From Nostoc sp. CCCryo 231-06 (GTDB taxonomy: Bacteria; Cyanobacteriota; Cyanobacteriia; Cyanobacteriales; Nostocaceae), in NCBI GenBank assembly GCA_023522315.1, contig JAHCSU010000419.1:1-64000 (forward strand): DNA of 64,000 nucleotides, given 5' to 3'. This document shows, in pieces, positions 1 through 62,017 of the stretch. Made by a program: the position numbers and the translations under genes. How positions within the stretch are numbered: position 1 is the first letter of the stretch; each line of letters starts with the position of its first letter. Under the pieces are notes generated by a model. That model ran no database searches. It saw only the letters and a list, made by a program, of their open reading frames with translations, and was not told the origin of the DNA.

Positions 1-1
1 T

Positions 2-916
2 AAAAGTTGGCTAGAAATATATTTTCCTTTGAATCAAGTTGTTTATGTAGTAATAGACAGGACTAATTGGGGATGTGTTAATCTCTTAATGATCAGTGTA
101 GTTTGGGATAAAAGGTCTATTCCTATATATTTGGAATTACTAGATAAGTTGGGATCAAGTAATTTCTCAGAACAACAAGCAGTATTCAAAAAAGTATTAC
201 CACTTTTTAAAAATTATAAGTCTGTGGTATTAGGAGACCGCGAATTTTGTTCATCAAAGTTGGCTAATTGGCTCACAGAGCAGAAAGTGTACTTTTGTTT
301 ACGTATAAAAAAATCTGCATTTATCGAAATAGAAACCGAAATTTGGCTCCAATTAAGAGATTCGGGTTTAGCTCCAGGAGTTGCTTTCTTTTATCAAGGT
401 ATTAAATATACAAAATCTCCGGGATTTATCAGCTTTAATCTTGCTGGTAAATGGAAGCGTAAACGCTTTGGAGTTGCGCCAGAGGAGGGCTGGTTTATCC
501 TTACTAATTTAGACACTTTAGACTCTACTATTAAAGCTTATAAACAGCGCTTTGATATTGAAGAGATGTTTAGAGATTTTAAGAGTGGTGGCTATAATTT
601 GGAGGATACCAATGCTTCTGGTCAACGCTTGATTTCTCTAATTTTATTAATCTCTCTTGCCTATACTAGCGCCACAATATCTGGTCAAAAAATCAAACGC
701 AAGGGTGTTCAAAAATATGTCGGTCGAATTAAAGAATCTGGGCGGACAGTTCGCCGTCATAGCAGTTTTTATATTGGATTATATGGAGCTAACTGGGTCA
801 ATTTCATGGAAAATTGCTATGACCTAGTGGCTGAGTTAATGATATTAGCTCCTAATAAGCGTAGGTTTTATCAAAAAGGAGAAAGGGCAATGAAGCTTAT
901 TCTCTCTGCATCCTAG
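2..916 (+). mobile_element. IS4-like (DDE) transposase, 5' end outside the window
   Basis: The ORF is open to the window start (KSWLEIYFPLNQVVYVVIDRTNWG...). DDE-type features: VIDRTNW, VVLGDREFCS, and YKQRFDIEEMFRDFKSGGYNLEDT, the IS4-type YREK-like region. Confidence 0.85.
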
Positions 917-948
917 CCCTTTTTGTCCCCCCGCAAGCTGCAAGACAC

Positions 949-2019
949 ATGCGGGGTATTGTCACAAGTAAGGAAATATCTTTTGTTAATCGCCGTCATG
1001 TGAGTGTGGATAAACTGAATGCAGCCCTTGTGGATATTATTAATCGCTACAATGTTTTAAAGCTTCCGAGCATTTGGGGTGACGGGACAACGGCGGCGGC
1101 GGATGGGACTAAGTACGAACTCTACGAGGAGAATCTGCTGTCTGAGTATCATATCCGCTATGGTGGCTACGGAGGGATTGCTTACCACCATGTTTCCGAT
1201 ACCTATGTGGCGCTATTTAGTCATTTTATTTCCTGCGGAACCTGGGAGGCTGTTTATATTATTGAAGGTTTGTTGAAAAATCTTTCTGATATTCAGCCTC
1301 ATACGATTCACGCAGATACTCAAGGACAATCAACGCCTGTGTTTGCTCTGTCACATATGTTGGGGATTAAGTTAATGCCCCAAATTCGGAATTGGAAAGA
1401 TTTAAATTTCTTCCGCCCAGATAATGATACGGTTTACAAGCATATTGATTCTTTGTTCAAAGATGCGATTGATTGGGAGAAAATTCAAAACCATTGGCAG
1501 GATATTTTACAGGTTGTGCTGTCGATTCAAACTGGCAAGATTTCGAGTGCGGTGCTGTTACGAAAGCTGGGAAATTATAGTCGAAAAAACAGATTATACC
1601 AAGCTTTTCAGGAGTTAGGACGGGTAATTAGGACGGTATTTCTGTTGCAATATATTTCGGATATGAAGTTGAGACAACAGATTACTGCGGCAACGAATAT
1701 TGTTGAGTCTTATAACGGTTTCTCGAAGTGGTTTTTCTTCGGTGGTTTTGGGGTTATTGCTAATAATGACCCAATTGAGCAGGAGAAGATTGTTAAATAT
1801 AATGATTTGGTTGCTAATGCTGTGATCTTCCACAATGTTGTGGATTTGACTGAGGTTTTGCGGGATTTGCTGAAATCTGGTTATTTAATTACTCGTGAAG
1901 ATGTGGCGGCGTTGAGTCCTTATATGACGAGTCATATCAAGCGTTTTGGCGATTACTTGATTGATATGGAGACTGTGCCGAATTTGTTGGATGATGACAA
2001 GCTCTTAGTTTTGGTTTAA
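949..2019 (+). mobile_element. Tn3-family transposase (TnpA), C-terminal part only
   Basis: Tn3 TnpA-like C-terminal sequence: SIWGDGTTAAADGTKYELYEENLLSEYHIRYGGYGGIAYHHVSDTYVALFSHFISCGTWEAVYIIEGLL...IHADTQGQSTPVFALSHMLGIKLMPQIRNWKDL...NIVESYNGFSKWFFFG. The N-terminal two thirds are absent and the ORF abuts the IS4-like element. Confidence 0.85.
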
Positions 2020-2070
2020 AAATTTGCGAAGGTAGGTCTGGTAAGGGTTGTAGAGTTAATATTTACAAAA

Positions 2071-2113
2071 CTTTACAACGTGTCCCATTTTGCACGTATC
2101 CCGGCTGTACCCC
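2071..2113 (-). repeat. Putative Tn3-family terminal inverted repeat (one end)
   Basis: The reverse complement reads GGGGTACAGCCGGGATACGTGCAAAATGGGACACGTTGTAAAG. It starts with GGGG and ends in an ACGTT..TAAAG-like motif, like Tn3-family IRs, and lies just downstream of the tnpA remnant. Confidence 0.6.
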
Positions 2114-2153
2114 TCGTTAGTAATAAAATTTTTGATAACTTTTTTGGTTTCAT
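2114..2153 (-). pseudogene. 5' remnant of a TonB-dependent receptor gene (first ~13 codons)
   Basis: The reverse complement encodes MKPKKLSKILLLT, matching METKKLSKILLVT of the intact receptor at 43146..45860. It is cut exactly at the Tn3-like IR. Confidence 0.7.
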
Positions 2154-2424
2154 TTGCTACCCCACACATTTAGCTATACTATTGAAATAATAATGACAAT
2201 AGTGCAGCAAATAGCTGATTTTTATTGAGAAAAACTACTATTATCATGAGAATAAACATTACATTAAATGGGTAAGCAATTACAAGTATTGCTCAGCTTT
2301 TGTGCTTTGAATCATAATTTGAGGTGCGACTCGTTCAGCCGAAACTGGAAAAACTGTGACTTAAAGTAAAAGATTGCCGTTTTTTAAAGGATTAAGACTA
2401 GCCCTTTCAAGGTGTAGGAGTGTG

Positions 2425-2699: not shown

Positions 2700-3641
2700 C
2701 TACTTAGGAAGTGAGATTTTATTCATTACAACCTCGTCCAAATCAGTACTCATAGATACTTCTCTCCAAGCATCTAATTCTGCTTTCATAAACTGCAATG
2801 CACTTTCAATAGTTTCTACTGTATCTGTTCCCAGTGCCAATCTGATAGGTGGGTTATCGCTATCAACCACTTTAATCATTGCCAAAGCTGCTTTTTTGGG
2901 GTCACCAAGTGCGTTTAAATCGTGATCCCACATATTCTGACGTATATTTCCAATTGATATTTCATAGTCTTCAATTTGAGTATCAATTACAACAACAGAA
3001 CGTTTAATAAAATCTGTACGGAAAGCACCAGGTTCAACAATTGTAACCTTAATGCCAAATGGAGCAACTTCACTTAGCAATGCTCCAGAAATTCCTTCTA
3101 GCGCAAGTTTACTACTGTTATAGAATCCCCAGGCAGTAGCAGTGGAAAAGCAACCTACTGATGAAACATTAAGGATGTGTCCACTGCGTTGTTGTCGCAT
3201 ATAAGGTAACACTACCCGTAGCGTTTCTAAAACACCAAAAAAGTTTGTTTCAAATAGACGACGAACTTCTTCATCGCTGACTTCCTCAATTGTCCCAATG
3301 GTGGAAACTCCGGCATTGTTAACAAGTACATCAATACGTCCAAAGTAAGCAATTGCTTGCTTTACTGCTTCCCTTACCTCTTCGGGTTTGGTCACATCAA
3401 GTTGCGCCACGATGGCACGACCTGGAAACTTTGAAGCTAAATCTTCAACTTTCTCAGCTTTTCGTGCTGTTAAAACTACCGCTTCACCTTTTTCTAGTAC
3501 TGCTTCTGCTAAAGCTCGACCAAGACCGCTTGAGCTACCAGTAATAAACCACACCCGTTCTTGAGAAATAGAAGATGTCACCATGAAAACTCTCCATTGA
3601 GTAATAAAAAGTTGTGAAATAGATGGATTACTGTTACTCAA
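2700..3641 (-). CDS. SDR family oxidoreductase
   Basis: WFITGSSSGLGRALAEAVL (TGxxxGxG), LVNNAGVS, YNSSK. The native start is probably MVTSSIS (~3584). Confidence 0.9.
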   Translation of the reverse strand: MSNSNPSISQLFITQWRVFMVTSSISQERVWFITGSSSGLGRALAEAVLEKGEAVVLTARKAEKVEDLASKFPGRAIVAQLDVTKPEEVREAVKQAIAYFGRIDVLVNNAGVSTIGTIEEVSDEEVRRLFETNFFGVLETLRVVLPYMRQQRSGHILNVSSVGCFSTATAWGFYNSSKLALEGISGALLSEVAPFGIKVTIVEPGAFRTDFIKRSVVVIDTQIEDYEISIGNIRQNMWDHDLNALGDPKKAALAMIKVVDSDNPPIRLALGTDTVETIESALQFMKAELDAWREVSMSTDLDEVVMNKISLPK

Positions 3642-41853: not shown

Positions 41854-43002
41854 TTAAGGTGTATTGACCAGGGATTTATATAAGTCATCAATTACAGCAT
41901 CAGCCGCCAGCAAGTTCAACCCATCCCATGCCCAACCATCTACAAGATGAACCTGCCTTTGTTGGACAGATCTGAGGGTTTTCCAAATGGGCTTTTGTTG
42001 TAGTTCTTCAATATCTTTTCTACGCCTGTCAAAATTTAAAACGAATAAAATATCACCATCTATTTTCTCTAGTTTTTCTTCGGAGATGTTATTAATAATG
42101 CCATCAGGTATAACAAAATTTTGTGTCGGTGGCCGTTGCAGCCCAAGATCATTAAGTATGGAAGCCGAAAATGAGTCTTTCGCATAGCTGAATATACTAT
42201 TACCATAAGCACCTACAACAGAAATTGTTTTATCTTGATAGCGATTACTCAAAGCTATTTTTAGTTCTTCAACTCGCTGATAATAATGATTCCAGGCTTG
42301 CTGCGCTTCTGCTTGTTTTCCTAGTACCTTGGCAATGGAGTTAAAACGTTCTTTCCAATTTATTCTTATGTCTTTCAACGGAAACATTACTGTAGGGGCA
42401 ATTTGAGAAAGTAGAGGGTAAAATGTTTTAGTCTCTTCAAGAGATAAGATTAAATCAGGCTTAAGTAGCAAGATCCTCTCCAGATTAGGCTCACTTCTTG
42501 TGCCTATTTGCTTGATCCTTTCTGCCTTGTTCCCCAGATAGGTTTGATAACTTAAATAGGATGTAGTTAACTCACCATCCAAAAAAGCACTACTAGCAAT
42601 GGGTTTAACGCCCAAGGCAAGCGTATGACCTAAGATAACAGGTGAAGTAGTAATGACCCTTTTGGGGTGATTGGGAACGCAGGTTTCACCCATTATGTGT
42701 TGCACGACTCGGCAAGGGGTTGAGGGTGGTTCAGAAGTTAGCATTTCGCTATGATCAATTGCCGTGCTGCTACAGCCTGAGACGATCGCGATTGTAAGTA
42801 GTGATAGCAATAGCCATTGTTTTACCCCCCTCAATCCCTTGGTAAGGGGGGAAGCCGGATCTGGCTCCCTCCCTTTTATAAGGGGAGGGCTGGGGTGGGG
42901 TCGATTATCAGGAGGGCTAAGGTGGAGTCGATCGCCGTAATTGACCAATCGTCTGAGCGATCGCTTCCACCACCTCATCCAGTTGTTGATCCACCTGTTC
43001 AT
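41854..43002 (-). CDS. Iron-siderophore ABC transporter substrate-binding lipoprotein (FecB/FepB family)
   Basis: Lipobox LLLSLLTIAIVSGCSS; PKRVITTSPVILGHTLALGVKPIASS...EPNLERILLLKPDLILSL...KTLRSVQQRQVHLVDGWAWDGLNLLAADAVIDDL. Native start is uncertain and lies downstream of a repeat-derived extension. Confidence 0.88.
   Translation of the reverse strand: MNRWINNWMRWWKRSLRRLVNYGDRLHLSPPDNRPHPSPPLIKGREPDPASPLTKGLRGVKQWLLLSLLTIAIVSGCSSTAIDHSEMLTSEPPSTPCRVVQHIMGETCVPNHPKRVITTSPVILGHTLALGVKPIASSAFLDGELTTSYLSYQTYLGNKAERIKQIGTRSEPNLERILLLKPDLILSLEETKTFYPLLSQIAPTVMFPLKDIRINWKERFNSIAKVLGKQAEAQQAWNHYYQRVEELKIALSNRYQDKTISVVGAYGNSIFSYAKDSFSASILNDLGLQRPPTQNFVIPDGIINNISEEKLEKIDGDILFVLNFDRRRKDIEELQQKPIWKTLRSVQQRQVHLVDGWAWDGLNLLAADAVIDDLYKSLVNTP
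42822..42905. repeat. Interspersed G/C-run cyanobacterial repeat
   Basis: TTTTACCCCCCTCAATCCCTTGGTAAGGGGGGAAGCCGGATCTGGCTCCCTCCCTTTTATAAGGGGAGGGCTGGGGTGGGGT contains two internal inverted repeats (CCCTTGGTAAGGG and CCCTCCCTTTTATAAGGGGAGGG). Confidence 0.6.
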
Positions 43003-43145: not shown

Positions 43146-45860
43146 TTAAAACTCCCAACTGATAGAGCCAGTGATGGTAAACGGTTCGGTTCTTTTAATA
43201 AATGTTCTGCTTCCCGCAAACGCAGTAGCATCTATGTCAAATAGATTACGGACATTAATCGCCACATTAAAACGATCTCTCCGATAGTAAAGGGCTGCAT
43301 CGGTACGGAAGTAATCGCCTAGCTCAAACGAATTATTTAAATCTCCTTGCCGCGCACCCACATAAAACAGCCCCAGACCAAATCCCAAGCCGCTGAGAGC
43401 AGCTTTCTGAATTGTATAGGTTGTCCAAAGACTCGCTTGATTTTTGGGTACGTTTGGCAATCGATTACCGACCGTAAAAGTGTTATCTTTCGTGAGTTCT
43501 GCATTGGTATAGGCATAGGACGCAATCACGTTCCAACCAGGCAAAATTTCACCTGTAAGATCCAACTCAACCCCGCGACTTTGTTGCTCCCCAGTTTGAA
43601 TCGAACGTAAAGGGTCAGTTGGATCTCCTGTGAGTGCATTTGTCTTGGTAAGTTGATAGGCTGCTAAGGTTGCTGAAAGCCTGCCGTCTAGAAAGTCAGA
43701 TTTGACACCAATTTCATATTGAGTTCCCTTTGTCGGGGCAAATGTGATGTCTGGATCAAAGCTATCAAGCCCGGCTAAAGCGGCAAACGAACGCGTATAG
43801 CTAGCGTAGAGCGATACATCTCTGCTAGGCTGATACACCAAGCCGATCCGAGGACTGAAGGCAGTATCATTCTGTGTTGGAAAAACAACGATCTCTCCAA
43901 GTGTATTAATATCTCCTTCAAAGTCAGACGAAACCGAATCAAAGCGACCACCAATTAAGAATTTTAGGTTATCACCAAATGCAACCTGATCCTGAAGGTA
44001 CAGACCATAGGAGCGCCTCACGATATTGAAGTCGGAGAAAGAACGATTTTTGGAAAATGTAGGTCTTGTAATGTCATAATTTGGATTGCGGATATCTAGA
44101 GGCGGTAAAGATGTATCAGCATTAATGCGATCGCCAACATTGCTAAAGCGGTTGAAATCAAAACCTGTCAAAACCTGATGAGAAATTGATCCAGTTTTAA
44201 ATTTGCCAAGCAAATCAATCTGTCCAAAATAGGTGTTTCTCTGAAAAACACCTTCATAAACAGCAAATGAATCCAAGAAGCGATCATCTACTAGGCTAAA
44301 ACCTGTTGCAAAATTTTCTCCAACACGAGTAAGAGCTACAGCAACATTATTCCGAATTTGCCAATTATCGCTAAATTCATGCTCTAAGGTGTAGCCAATT
44401 CTATGAGTATTGACATCAAGCGACTGTAAGCCAGGATAATAAGTGGCAAAGCCTCGAGGTGTTAAGCTACCATTGCCTAAAAGCACAGCATTAGAAAAAC
44501 CAGCAGCAGGATTGGCGAAAAGGTTAGTGTACTCATAGTAGAGATTCAGATTTGTCCGATCGCCCAACTTTAACGTGATAGACGGTGCAATTCCAAGCAG
44601 TCTGTTATCGGAAAAGCCTTGAAAATCGCTTGAACCTTGATAACTTGCAATAAAACGGTAAAGCACCGTTTTATTGGTATTTAATGAACCTGAGAAATCG
44701 ATACTAGGCTGATACAGTCCATAATTTCCTGCCTCAAACGCAAGATTGTAATAGGGTTCACTCAAGGGTTTTTTAGTCACCGTGTTAATAATCCCACCCG
44801 GTTCTCCAGATCCGAACAAAACTGAAGCGGGACCTTTGAGGATTTCCACTCGCTCGATCGTCTTAATGGGAGATGATAGGGTGTTGAAATCACCATCTGG
44901 AAAGCCATTGCGGAAAATGACAGTACTTGCACCCCCTTGTTCAAATCCTCTGACAATGCTTGAGCGTGCAAAAGGCGTATTACCATAGTTTGCTGAGCCA
45001 AGAGCAACGCCACTAACAGTTTCTAGCGCCTCCGTTACAGTTCTCACATTACGATCTTCCAGTACCTGTCGCGGTACGACCTGAATTGAAGCAGGAATAT
45101 CCCGTAATGGTGTATCCGTCCGCGTCGCCGTACTGGCATTCGGTACGCGATACCCATCTTGCTCGCCTGTCACGACTAATTCAATTGGCTCATCCGGCTG
45201 CGCTGCTGATTCTTCTTGTGGTGTTTCGGCTGCTGGCTTTTCTTGTGCTGGAGCTGTTTCCTGTGGCTGTGTTGCAATTGCAGCAGAAGTTATGCCAAAA
45301 ACTACCCCAGCATCATCATCAAATAACTCAACCGTGGGCAAAGTTTTCTCACCTACCACAGTCACTCGCACAGTACTCGCATCAACATTCGTAACTGTTA
45401 TCTCGATAATTCCTGCAAGGGGTTTTTCCGAACGAAATGTAAACGCCTCACCACTGGATGAACGCAGTTGGGCATTGGGAATGTCAGCAATAAAGTTATT
45501 ATCGGCACTGCGATTTGTAATTTGCAGTTTTTCTCCTTGAGTGGTTTGTAAAATTACTTCCACACCCTTATCGGTGGGTTTAGCTTGCACTCCCGTAACT
45601 TGGATAACATCTCCCTGAGAAGGTGAAGGGGGGTTAGTTGATGCTGGTGACTGTACTAGCATTTGGGCGCTAGTGCTGGGATGCTCTATCTCACTGAGTT
45701 GGCGAATCTCTCTAATTGACCGGGAATTACGTAGTACCGATGCCATAGATTTATTCTGCATCTCTGGCTTTGGTATCTCTTGAGCAGCTGCGTTCATTGT
45801 ACACCACAACCAAACAGAACTCGTCACTAATAAAATTTTCGATAACTTCTTTGTTTCCAT
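43146..45860 (-). CDS. TonB-dependent siderophore receptor with N-terminal AMIN domain
   Basis: Signal peptide; AMIN region (VTGVQAKPTDKGVEVILQTTQGEKLQI...); plug (PLRDIPASIQVVPRQVLEDRNVRTVTEALETVSGV...RVEILKGPASVLFGSGEPGGIINTVTKKP); C-terminal ...GSISWEF. Confidence 0.95.
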   Translation of the reverse strand: METKKLSKILLVTSSVWLWCTMNAAAQEIPKPEMQNKSMASVLRNSRSIREIRQLSEIEHPSTSAQMLVQSPASTNPPSPSQGDVIQVTGVQAKPTDKGVEVILQTTQGEKLQITNRSADNNFIADIPNAQLRSSSGEAFTFRSEKPLAGIIEITVTNVDASTVRVTVVGEKTLPTVELFDDDAGVVFGITSAAIATQPQETAPAQEKPAAETPQEESAAQPDEPIELVVTGEQDGYRVPNASTATRTDTPLRDIPASIQVVPRQVLEDRNVRTVTEALETVSGVALGSANYGNTPFARSSIVRGFEQGGASTVIFRNGFPDGDFNTLSSPIKTIERVEILKGPASVLFGSGEPGGIINTVTKKPLSEPYYNLAFEAGNYGLYQPSIDFSGSLNTNKTVLYRFIASYQGSSDFQGFSDNRLLGIAPSITLKLGDRTNLNLYYEYTNLFANPAAGFSNAVLLGNGSLTPRGFATYYPGLQSLDVNTHRIGYTLEHEFSDNWQIRNNVAVALTRVGENFATGFSLVDDRFLDSFAVYEGVFQRNTYFGQIDLLGKFKTGSISHQVLTGFDFNRFSNVGDRINADTSLPPLDIRNPNYDITRPTFSKNRSFSDFNIVRRSYGLYLQDQVAFGDNLKFLIGGRFDSVSSDFEGDINTLGEIVVFPTQNDTAFSPRIGLVYQPSRDVSLYASYTRSFAALAGLDSFDPDITFAPTKGTQYEIGVKSDFLDGRLSATLAAYQLTKTNALTGDPTDPLRSIQTGEQQSRGVELDLTGEILPGWNVIASYAYTNAELTKDNTFTVGNRLPNVPKNQASLWTTYTIQKAALSGLGFGLGLFYVGARQGDLNNSFELGDYFRTDAALYYRRDRFNVAINVRNLFDIDATAFAGSRTFIKRTEPFTITGSISWEF

Positions 45861-45943: not shown

Positions 45944-46046
45944 TCAAGCCCCTAAATTTATTTATGCCAAATCTTAAATATTTATTTCGAGATGCGTAGC
46001 ACGAGAAATAATGCCTCCTTGTTTCAAGCCCCTAAATTTATTTATG
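45944..46046. repeat. Two exact 23-bp direct repeats (TCAAGCCCCTAAATTTATTTATG) in the receptor 5' region
   Basis: Copies at 45944-45966 and 46024-46046, 80 bp apart. A 9-bp inverted repeat GGCAGGGGA/TCCCCTGCC lies just before (45901-45933). Confidence 0.7.
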
Positions 46047-46229
46047 GGGTTCTCCCCCCAGCTAATAGCTCCCTGCCCCCTTTCCTCTTCAGTGACTAAA
46101 GAAAATTAATGTCAGTATTACATGAGTTATTTACTATGATTTCAAGAATAAATCTTACAGAAAATGGTTTAGCAATTGCAAGTATTTATCAGTTTTTCTT
46201 CACAAAACTAGTTACATAACGATCCATCC

Positions 46230-58532: not shown

Positions 58533-59603
58533 TTAAGCAATTACTTGAAAATTTACATAGGAAGGTACAGGTTGAATTCGAGTTAAATCATTTTCAAAAA
58601 TAACTAAATCCCTATTATTATCAATTTCTTGAAATCCTGCAAATTTATAAGATATATACATCATTCTGTTGCGGTCATTTGGTAAAAACTCTGCCACAAG
58701 ACGGACATTATTGCTTTGAGCTAGACTCATAATATGATTCATCATTATTGTCCCAACTCCCCTCGACATGACGCGACAAGACATCAGCAAAAGCTTTATT
58801 GTCCATGATTTTGGCTGGCATTCGATCAGAACTAAACCTATCTTACCGTAGCTGCCATACTTATCTTCCAGACTTGCAATCAGCAGTTTATGGTTGTCTG
58901 ATTGGCGAAAATGATTGAGTTCATCATAGGAGTAGGTATAACCAGTTGTATTCAATTGGTTGGTTCTTAGTGTTAATTCTTCTGCACGCTGTAAGTCTTC
59001 TTCTTTAGCAGAGGAGATAGTGAAATTCATATTGAGAGTAGCTAAGAATTCGTCTGCTGTGCCAACAAATTCTTTCTCTGCATTTTGACGCTCAATATCA
59101 CTAACATACATCAACCTTCTAATTTGTGAATCTTCCGTAAGAAAACGGGGATTCATGACAGGCATATCTAAAATATTCTCTATCTCATCTACGTTTATAC
59201 ACAGGATTTCTGGTAAAGAAAATTTTACTTCTTCTAGTTCAAACAATTGGTCATCAATAAAGGCGATCGCATCCATACCAATATTAAGTAACTTAGCAAC
59301 TTCTTTGAGAGAAGCAGCCTTAGAATTCCAATTTATTTGTGGATATAAAAAATACTCTTCTAAACCAAATTCTTCTAGTTTAGCTATTGCTGTAGCACGC
59401 TCGTTCTTACTAGCTATAGATTGTATGATACCACGACTATCTAAAGTCTGAATAATATTTACTATATTTTGTCGCAGAGAAACTTTCTCGTCTTCCAGCA
59501 AAACTCCATGCCATATGGTATTATCCAAATCCCAAACGACACATTTAATAACTTTTTTGTCTTTTTGTTTACTATTTATGTCTTGTTCTTGAGTACTAAT
59601 CAT
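58533..59603 (-). CDS. HAD-superfamily FkbH-like protein (1,3-bisphosphoglycerate to glyceryl-ACP)
   Basis: HAD motif VVWDLDNTIWHGVLLED; IASKNERATAIAKLEEFGL; IAFIDDQLFELEEV; C-terminal acyltransferase-like region. Confidence 0.9.
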   Translation of the reverse strand: MISTQEQDINSKQKDKKVIKCVVWDLDNTIWHGVLLEDEKVSLRQNIVNIIQTLDSRGIIQSIASKNERATAIAKLEEFGLEEYFLYPQINWNSKAASLKEVAKLLNIGMDAIAFIDDQLFELEEVKFSLPEILCINVDEIENILDMPVMNPRFLTEDSQIRRLMYVSDIERQNAEKEFVGTADEFLATLNMNFTISSAKEEDLQRAEELTLRTNQLNTTGYTYSYDELNHFRQSDNHKLLIASLEDKYGSYGKIGLVLIECQPKSWTIKLLLMSCRVMSRGVGTIMMNHIMSLAQSNNVRLVAEFLPNDRNRMMYISYKFAGFQEIDNNRDLVIFENDLTRIQPVPSYVNFQVIA

Positions 59604-59606
59604 ATA

Positions 59607-60791
59607 TTAACTTATCTCTGCTAATTTCTTTTCCAAGCCAGTAGTAACATTTGCAAAAAGATAATCTTGATAACCTGAGTCTGCGATCGTAATTTCTTGA
59701 ATTTGAGTACTACCTTCAATGATTTCCATAATTTTAGAGTCGCGTAAATACCTTTCCACTGGGTACTCACTACTACAACCATTGCCACCATGAATTTGCA
59801 CGGCATCATTTGCTATTTTGCTAGCTACTGTGGATGCAAAGTACTTAGCAATAGAAGTCTCTATAATTGAGTTTGGGTCGTTAATGTCTTTGAGATAACC
59901 AGCTTGATAACACAGCAGTCTTGCTGCTTTGACGTTAGTTATCATCTGACTAATCATTTGGCGGATTAATTGATGTTCTTTCAGATAAACGCCAAACTGT
60001 TTTCGCTCATTTGTATACTTGATACAAGCTTCTAAACAAGCTTGAGCAATACCTACACAACCCGATGCCACACTATATCTACCATAATCAAGTGCAGTAG
60101 CAGCAATGTAGGAAAATCCAAAACCCAGTTTACCTACTAAATTTTCTAAAGAAACCTGACAGTTATCAAAGTGTAATTCTGCTGACATTGAAGCCCTAAC
60201 ACCTAAAATCCCAGACATTGGTTTGACTGACAGTCCAGGACTATTTTTTTCAACTAAAAAAGCAGTGGGTTTCCCCTCACATTTAGCAAAGACCAAAAAT
60301 ACATCTGCTATTTGTCCATAGGTAATCCATTTCTTTTGCCCATTTAAGACATAAACATCACCAACAAGTGTTGATGTTGTTTCTACACTTTTAGCATCGC
60401 TACCTACATTCGGTTCGCTTAACGCAAAAGCAGCAATAGTTTCACCAGATGCAAATTTAGGAAGCCAATACTGTTTTTGAGATTTATTACCCCATTTACA
60501 CAAAGCATGAGCAACCATGTTGTGAACTGTCAACAAACTTCGCACGGAAGAACATCCCCGTCCAATTTCCTCGTTGAGAATGCCATAGGTAATCATGTCC
60601 ATTCCTTGACCGCCATATTCTTGGGGTAATATAGCACCGAGAAAACCACGTTTAGCTATCTTCTTAATTAGTTCTCGCGGGGTAAATTCTTTCCTATCCC
60701 ATTCGCCAGCATCAGGGCATATTTCCTGATTAACAAAAGCTCTAAATTCAGCTTTAGCGTTTTTTTGTTGACTAGACAGTTCCAGTTTCAT
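59607..60791 (-). CDS. Acyl-CoA dehydrogenase family protein (FkbI-like)
   Basis: GFLGAILPQEYGGQGMDMITYGILNEEIGRGCSSVRSLLTVHNMV...FALSEPNVGSDAKSVETTS...QIHGGNGCSSEYPVERYLRDSKIMEIIEGSTQIQ. Confidence 0.92.
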   Translation of the reverse strand: MKLELSSQQKNAKAEFRAFVNQEICPDAGEWDRKEFTPRELIKKIAKRGFLGAILPQEYGGQGMDMITYGILNEEIGRGCSSVRSLLTVHNMVAHALCKWGNKSQKQYWLPKFASGETIAAFALSEPNVGSDAKSVETTSTLVGDVYVLNGQKKWITYGQIADVFLVFAKCEGKPTAFLVEKNSPGLSVKPMSGILGVRASMSAELHFDNCQVSLENLVGKLGFGFSYIAATALDYGRYSVASGCVGIAQACLEACIKYTNERKQFGVYLKEHQLIRQMISQMITNVKAARLLCYQAGYLKDINDPNSIIETSIAKYFASTVASKIANDAVQIHGGNGCSSEYPVERYLRDSKIMEIIEGSTQIQEITIADSGYQDYLFANVTTGLEKKLAEIS

Positions 60792-60831
60792 AATACCATT
60801 TCTGCCACATAAAATGGCACTTTATATTTTG

Positions 60832-61080
60832 TTACTGCACCAAAATAGCCGTTTTACGTTCAATTAAATTGGCGAGAGAGTTGATTGTGCGAAAATTTTC
60901 AAATTCCAAGTCTTCATTTTCAATAGTAATCTGAAACTCTTGCTCTACAAATAAAACAAGTTGCATAGCAAACATAGAATTGACAAAACCTAGAGCAAAA
61001 ATGTCTTCATCTGGTTGCAAATCATGATTACCGAAAAATTTGAAAAGGAAAGTTTTTATTTTAGCTTGAATTTCGCTCAT
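60832..61080 (-). CDS. Discrete acyl carrier protein (FkbJ-like)
   Basis: 82 aa, LQPDEDIFALGFVNSMFAMQLVLFVEQEF, with the phosphopantetheine Ser in VNSMFAMQ. Confidence 0.88.
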   Translation of the reverse strand: MSEIQAKIKTFLFKFFGNHDLQPDEDIFALGFVNSMFAMQLVLFVEQEFQITIENEDLEFENFRTINSLANLIERKTAILVQ

Positions 61081-61099
61081 TAGTCTTGATTATTCCTAT

Positions 61100-62017
61100 T
61101 TATTGATATACGTAAAACCCTTTACCAGTTTTTCTTCCATACAACCCTGCATCAACCATTTTTTTGAGTAAAGAGCATGGTCTGTATTTGCTATCATTAA
61201 AGTTTTCGTACAAGACTTCGATAGAAAATAAAATTGTGTCTAGCCCAATTAAATCTGCTGTTTCTAAAGGCCCCATTTTGTGACCAAAACAACCTTTAAA
61301 TATTTTGTCCACATCTTCTGCTGTAGCAACTTGGTCTTGCAACAGAAAAATAGCTTCGTTAATAGTTAACATCAACACACGGTTGGAAACAAAACCCGGT
61401 GAATCATTGACAATGATGCATTCTTTACCCATCTGAGCGAGCATTTGTTTTGCCGTTTCAATTGTTGTATCAGAGGTATGATATCCACGAATCATCTCCA
61501 CCATCGGCTTCATTGGTACAGGATTCATAAAGTGGATACCAACAACTTTATCGGCTCGTTTTGTGACTGAAGCTATGCGGGTAATGGGAATAGCTGATGT
61601 GTTAGCGGCGAATATACAATTTACTGGGCAAATAGAATCTATTAAGGGATAAACCTCTCTTTTAATATCCCATTTTTCGGTGACATTTTCAACTATAAAA
61701 TCTGCCTTTTCTAAATTTTTATAGTTTGTAGAAAACTCTATTTCTTCGATGATACCATCTGGAGTTTCTGTGTTGTCGCTTTTTTTGAAAAACCCCTGAA
61801 AGCGGATATTATTCCTGATTTGCTGTTTCGCTTTATCCAGGATATCTTCAGAAATATCTACAAGAACAACTTGATGACCTGTTTGAGCCAGATTTTGTGC
61901 AACTCCAACTCCCATTACTCCTGCACCAACAACGCCTACTGTTTGAATATTCATAATTTTTACAAACCTACCTTTGCTACCAAATCTTTTAATTTCAGCT
62001 GTGGATAGCATAACCAT
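61100..62017 (-). CDS. 3-hydroxyacyl-CoA dehydrogenase family protein (FkbK-like)
   Basis: VGVVGAGVMGVGVAQNLAQTGHQVVLVD; GIHFMNPVPMKPMVEMIRG; NDSPGFVSNRVLMLTINEA. Native start is probably MNIQTVG. Confidence 0.9.
   Translation of the reverse strand: MVMLSTAEIKRFGSKGRFVKIMNIQTVGVVGAGVMGVGVAQNLAQTGHQVVLVDISEDILDKAKQQIRNNIRFQGFFKKSDNTETPDGIIEEIEFSTNYKNLEKADFIVENVTEKWDIKREVYPLIDSICPVNCIFAANTSAIPITRIASVTKRADKVVGIHFMNPVPMKPMVEMIRGYHTSDTTIETAKQMLAQMGKECIIVNDSPGFVSNRVLMLTINEAIFLLQDQVATAEDVDKIFKGCFGHKMGPLETADLIGLDTILFSIEVLYENFNDSKYRPCSLLKKMVDAGLYGRKTGKGFYVYQ

Follow-up and report, generated by a model that had tools for sequence, protein, structure and literature searches.

What broke the short receptor-like sequence at one edge of a large Nostoc biosynthetic cluster, and what kind of gene was lost there? 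The window, that is, the whole stretch of DNA analyzed, comprises 64,000 nt from Nostoc sp. CCCryo 231-06 (GCA_023522315.1), positions 1 to 64,000 of the forward strand of contig JAHCSU010000419.1; the host assembly amounts to 7.08 Mb in 720 contigs and is 99% complete. Within the window lies a large NRPS/PKS cluster that includes a receptor, which passes TIGR01783, and an iron-siderophore binding protein. By the criterion of iron-transport genes in the cluster context (PMC4247773), it counts as a putative siderophore cluster. Many Nostocaceae keep its gene order NRPS, P450, SDR, sucrase/ferredoxin-like, MATE, SDR, with gains and losses. Because the sequence past the last SDR gene differed in nearly all compared genomes, the cluster edge was placed at approximately position 2700. 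The features referred to below are as follows.

1-938, plus strand: 3′ portion of an insertion sequence of the IS4 family, lying within the Tn3 tnpA gene
939-2019, plus strand: TnpA of the Tn3 family, C-terminal part, cut short by the IS4 element
2064-2113, minus strand: terminal inverted repeat of the Tn3 family (GGGGTACAGCCGGGATACGTGCAAAATGGGACACGTTGTAAAGT...), at the tnpA-proximal end; a near-matching repeat is found at both ends of intact elements
2114-2118, no strand assigned: predicted 5-bp Tn3 target, AACGA on the minus strand
2115-2153, minus strand: the 13 opening codons (MKPKKLSKILLLT) of a disrupted TonB-dependent receptor gene
2154-2301, minus strand: non-coding 5′ leader of the same broken gene, ∼148 bp, homologous to the leaders of intact receptors
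2301-2392, no strand assigned: dispersed repeat of ∼92 bp, abutting the leader
2425-2518, no strand assigned: MITE-like element whose 31-bp inverted repeats are imperfect; ∼100 bp recur in relatives
2580-2700, no strand assigned: end fragment of an IS630-family element, ∼120 bp, abutting the stop codon of the last cluster gene
2700-3641, minus strand: SDR-family gene at the cluster edge, the final conserved gene of the NRPS/PKS cluster
41854-43002, minus strand: periplasmic iron-siderophore binding protein gene, adjoining the intact receptor
43146-45860, minus strand: intact 904-aa TonB-dependent siderophore receptor (AMIN, plug, and barrel), inside the cluster

Two further details of the window were recorded. 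Genes for an HAD protein, an acyl-CoA dehydrogenase, and a 3-hydroxyacyl-CoA dehydrogenase lie in a row at 58533-62017, an arrangement that we take to resemble hydroxy/methoxymalonyl extender-unit pathways (FkbH-type sets). An insertion at 45945-46047, in the leader of the intact receptor, contains two copies of TCAAGCCCCTAAATTTATTTATG and is absent from all other aligned leaders.

The receptor stump and its relatives

The segment singled out by an earlier note (2071-2300) combines the tnpA-proximal Tn3 end (2071-2113) with a stump of 188 bp on the minus strand (2114-2301), made up of the leader and 13 codons. Over 2153-2114, the start of the stump and that of the receptor at 45860 shared 34 of 40 nt, or 35 of 41 counting the next G, which reproduces the ∼35 of 41 given in that note. 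Within the window the two sequences aligned in a 70-bp block running from ∼35 bp upstream of the ATG to the break (83% identity; E value, 1e−15) and in a second block further upstream (66 bp; 77% identity; E value, 3e−9). Receptor homology ended at 2114 and the GGGGTACAGCC repeat began at 2113, exactly the coincidence that had been reported. Continued into the Tn3 end, the stump frame reads MKPKKLSKILLLTRGTAGIRAKWDTL and meets a stop codon 13 codons inside the transposon. Plug and beta-barrel domains are absent from the stump, which, as judged from its sequence, is a pseudogene remnant of a former TonB-dependent siderophore receptor gene and now encodes no receptor. The description "decapitated" was therefore the wrong way round, as the head is kept and the body is gone.

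The leader block (2301-2114) was searched against 218 genomes of the same family. It matched G149 with 83% identity over 188 bp (E value, 4e−51) and G155, G139, G129, and G145 with 72 to 74%. In all five, the homologous leader runs into an intact receptor of 873 to 894 aa (894 aa in G149), ∼49 to 52% identical to the receptor of the window, whose own leader is partly homologous to that of the stump. Leader parts are also shared by G117 and G127, likewise ahead of a receptor gene. The alignment showed the stump and G149 to be identical over the final 16 nt before the break, and six intact receptors besides G149 have common leader blocks; the stump shares start and leader with these genes, all of which extend beyond its end point.

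As the coding portion is just 13 codons, chance or a generic signal peptide could in principle produce such a likeness. However, the homology reaches 148 bp into the non-coding leader, with the E value for G149 cited above, and nine other receptor leaders from the same genome scored at the level of shuffled sequence (18 to 28, compared with 219 for G149 and 79 for the receptor of the window). The generic signal peptide, named in the earlier note as what would refute its claim, is thus excluded, and the reading as a whole has a negligible probability. The leaders of receptors lying past the edge gene in four relatives also scored no better than shuffled sequence (18 to 28). Taken with the G149 match and the continuation of intact homologues past the break, the leader homology bears out the proposal of a second, like-oriented TonB receptor of this family. 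Region 2114-2301 is very probably the surviving 5′ end of that gene, cut by a Tn3-family element at codon 13/14, with an IS4 element later inserted in tnpA.

The similar start sequence and shared orientation could also be explained if the stump were a tandem or segmental duplicate of the receptor at 45860. As far as an alignment of 198 columns allows, this is contradicted by the leader tree (200 bootstraps), in which the receptor of the window joined G117 and G127 (support, 100) and the stump was placed by G149/G139, and by leader identities of 0.82 between stump and G149 versus 0.73 between stump and window receptor. A duplicate is accordingly very improbable. The leader sequences point instead to a distinct receptor lineage and no recent copy of the intact receptor, for which the evidence is moderate because the alignment is short.

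The Tn3-family remnant and the missing receptor body

The open reading frame at 949-2019 matched PF01526 (DDE transposase, Tn3 type; 435 bits), and the best solved relative of its product was the TnpA of Tn4430 (E value, 6e−49). Window DNA from 934 to 2113 shared 94.7 to 95.7% identity with elements of G020, G150, and a plasmid of Nostoc sp. TCL26-01, and the transposase protein was 98% identical to the plasmid copy. Intact elements were found in G020 (3,934 bp), G055 (3,984 bp), and G150 (4,849 bp), with a closely matching repeat at both ends and perfect 5-bp target duplications (TGTAA, TTACA, and TTATA, respectively). Given the matching ends and duplications of these three relatives, position 2113 is the true end of the transposon, and AACGA (2118-2114, minus strand) is therefore the expected target; the same bases occur in the intact G149 receptor. 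The other flank of the window copy, where the duplicate would lie, is missing from the assembly. The Tn3-like repeat of the earlier note is confirmed by these ends together with the two transposase matches. Tn3-family elements have terminal inverted repeats of about 38 bp or longer at their two ends. Intact relatives carry both; of the window copy, one is in the assembly, at 2113, and of a full ∼1,000-aa TnpA and resolvase this copy keeps the C-terminal part of TnpA. It is a truncated remnant of a Tn3-family transposon, not a complete one.

In G150 (L163, 1629-6477) and G020 (L157, 411-4344), a tyrosine recombinase gene is divergent from an HTH/double-zinc-ribbon gene, which recalls the TnpS/TnpT layout. 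A survey of 190 Tn3 members included three TnpI-type elements (PMC7157771). The terminal repeat of the window element was also present as inverted pairs ∼306 bp apart in G128, G134, G142, and other genomes, suggesting short non-autonomous derivatives of the Tn3 type found in the window.

The contig begins at window base 1, inside the IS4 element. Two other contigs carry the end of this element at their own ends, which accounts for the contig break here. In the proposed course of events, codon 13/14 of a second TonB-dependent siderophore receptor gene would have been the landing site of a Tn3-family transposon, whose tnpA-proximal terminal repeat thereby came to lie at 2113, and the receptor body would have been either split off or deleted. 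Later, tnpA would itself have been hit by an IS4-family element, which inactivated the transposon where it stood and ended the contig.

The missing parts were sought throughout the assembly. No second Tn3 terminal repeat was found in the 720 contigs, nor was the remaining left half of the element, and the transposase N-terminal domain PF13700, present in an intact relative, was not found in the host genome. At neither the DNA nor the protein level did the assembly contain a headless receptor body. Receptors elsewhere in the host genome comprised eight further loci and one divergent locus, and none of these is a headless gene abutting a Tn3 end. The C380 receptor was considered as the missing body; of these loci it is the closest to the G149 receptor (61%), and it was rejected because it has a signal peptide of its own and an AraC-like frame lies upstream. 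Another receptor gene, on contig C231 (1775-4283), is in two frames, split at residue 768, and is likely a frameshifted pseudogene or an assembly error.

The body could have been lost by transposon-adjacent deletion, through intramolecular replicative transposition, and not displaced by simple insertion. The lack of any headless body in a 99% complete assembly favors this, as does the corresponding lack of the left half and second repeat of the transposon. On the other side, the assembly is in 720 contigs and breaks inside a multicopy IS4 element, so the missing sequence may be unassembled. Taken by itself, loss by deletion was rated a little below an even chance. With receptor body, left half, and second repeat all absent from the assembly, the two processes are inseparable, and adjacent deletion is as possible as simple insertion. 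For the same reason, we infer that the gene was continuous before the insertion and, with it, that the target was an intact, working receptor. The target may already have been a fragment, since the other edge of the leader also ends at a repeat (2301).

The cluster border in relatives

The earlier note held that a receptor had once lain at the left border. A receptor stump does lie there; the idea of a native border gene stands unproven, as position 2301 adjoins repeats and the closest relatives are without a border receptor. Just past the edge gene, G158 and Pelatocladus have a receptor on the same strand, and Fischerella, Calothrix PCC 7716, and G071 have one on the opposite strand. Most other examined genomes had none at this place. 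In G106 and G135, which are the nearest relatives whose contigs are long enough, and in most named Nostoc, no receptor was present within ∼9 to 10 kb of the edge gene. The receptors at this border in G158, Pelatocladus, Fischerella, and Calothrix PCC 7716 were each considered as the source of the stump and set aside, their leaders being dissimilar.

As the edge at 2301 abuts repeat, MITE, and IS630 fragments, the presence of the stump beside the cluster may be secondary. In that event it would be a stray fragment of leader and gene start, moved to the edge by repeat or IS rearrangement before the Tn3 insertion, and no functional border receptor would ever have existed. The homologous block stops at 2301 exactly where the dispersed repeat ends, the MITE-like and IS630 fragments occupy much of 2301-2700, and the receptors most like the stump follow an NRPS gene inside the cluster in relatives; the receptor-free borders of G106, G135, and most named Nostoc fit as well. 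Against this, G158 and Pelatocladus carry their same-strand receptor just past the edge gene, and the good preservation of the leader, together with 13 start codons still in frame, suggests that the gene was whole until recently. A stray fragment was judged unlikely, at about one chance in four. In a search of a plasmid collection with the stump region, the 20 records listed of 23 matched the flanking repeats only.

Contig C90 (locus L071; 6392-6643, 6907-7350, and 1861-4635) of the same genome carries a degenerate second copy of the cluster-edge genes, with MATE and SDR fragments that are 66 to 69% identical. Downstream of this copy come an AraC-type regulator, an intact receptor of 924 aa, a binding protein, and a permease, and all share one strand.

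In G139 and G129, the receptors with the most stump-like leaders are found inside the cluster, in its central slot; in G149, the receptor follows an NRPS gene. It is conceivable, and rather doubtful, that the cluster swapped its siderophore receptor, with another lineage now in the central slot and the older one left as a broken relic at the edge. If so, the stump would be the record of a switch of receptors, and that switch could track a change in siderophore. Receptor position and lineage vary among otherwise conserved clusters, which bears on predicting how receptors and products are paired. Loss of the second receptor was probably tolerated, because the cluster keeps an intact receptor and binding protein and the genome has at least eight other receptor loci.

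Comparison with known systems

The event is ordinary pseudogenization by nested mobile elements, a transposon in a gene and an IS in the transposon; it affords a view at base-pair resolution of the loss of a siderophore receptor gene beside a large NRPS/PKS cluster. The window element resembles the Tn3 family (Tn4430-like TnpA, PF01526) in its TnpA domain, in a terminal repeat starting with GGGG beside the 3′ end of tnpA, and in the 5-bp target duplications seen in its intact relatives. It differs in that the window copy is truncated by IS4 and in that its intact cyanobacterial relatives carry a tyrosine recombinase gene paired with an HTH/zinc-ribbon gene of divergent orientation. Among TonB-dependent siderophore receptors (TIGR01783, cyanobacterial AMIN type), the intact homologues of the stump are full-length and mostly NRPS-linked, whereas here a leader and 13 codons remain, without a receptor domain. 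In a survey of cyanobacterial NRPS/PKS clusters, 62 had siderophore transport genes and 26% contained or were flanked by mobile elements, mostly highly degraded (PMC4247773). In contrast to such debris, here one element can be tied to the loss of a named gene.
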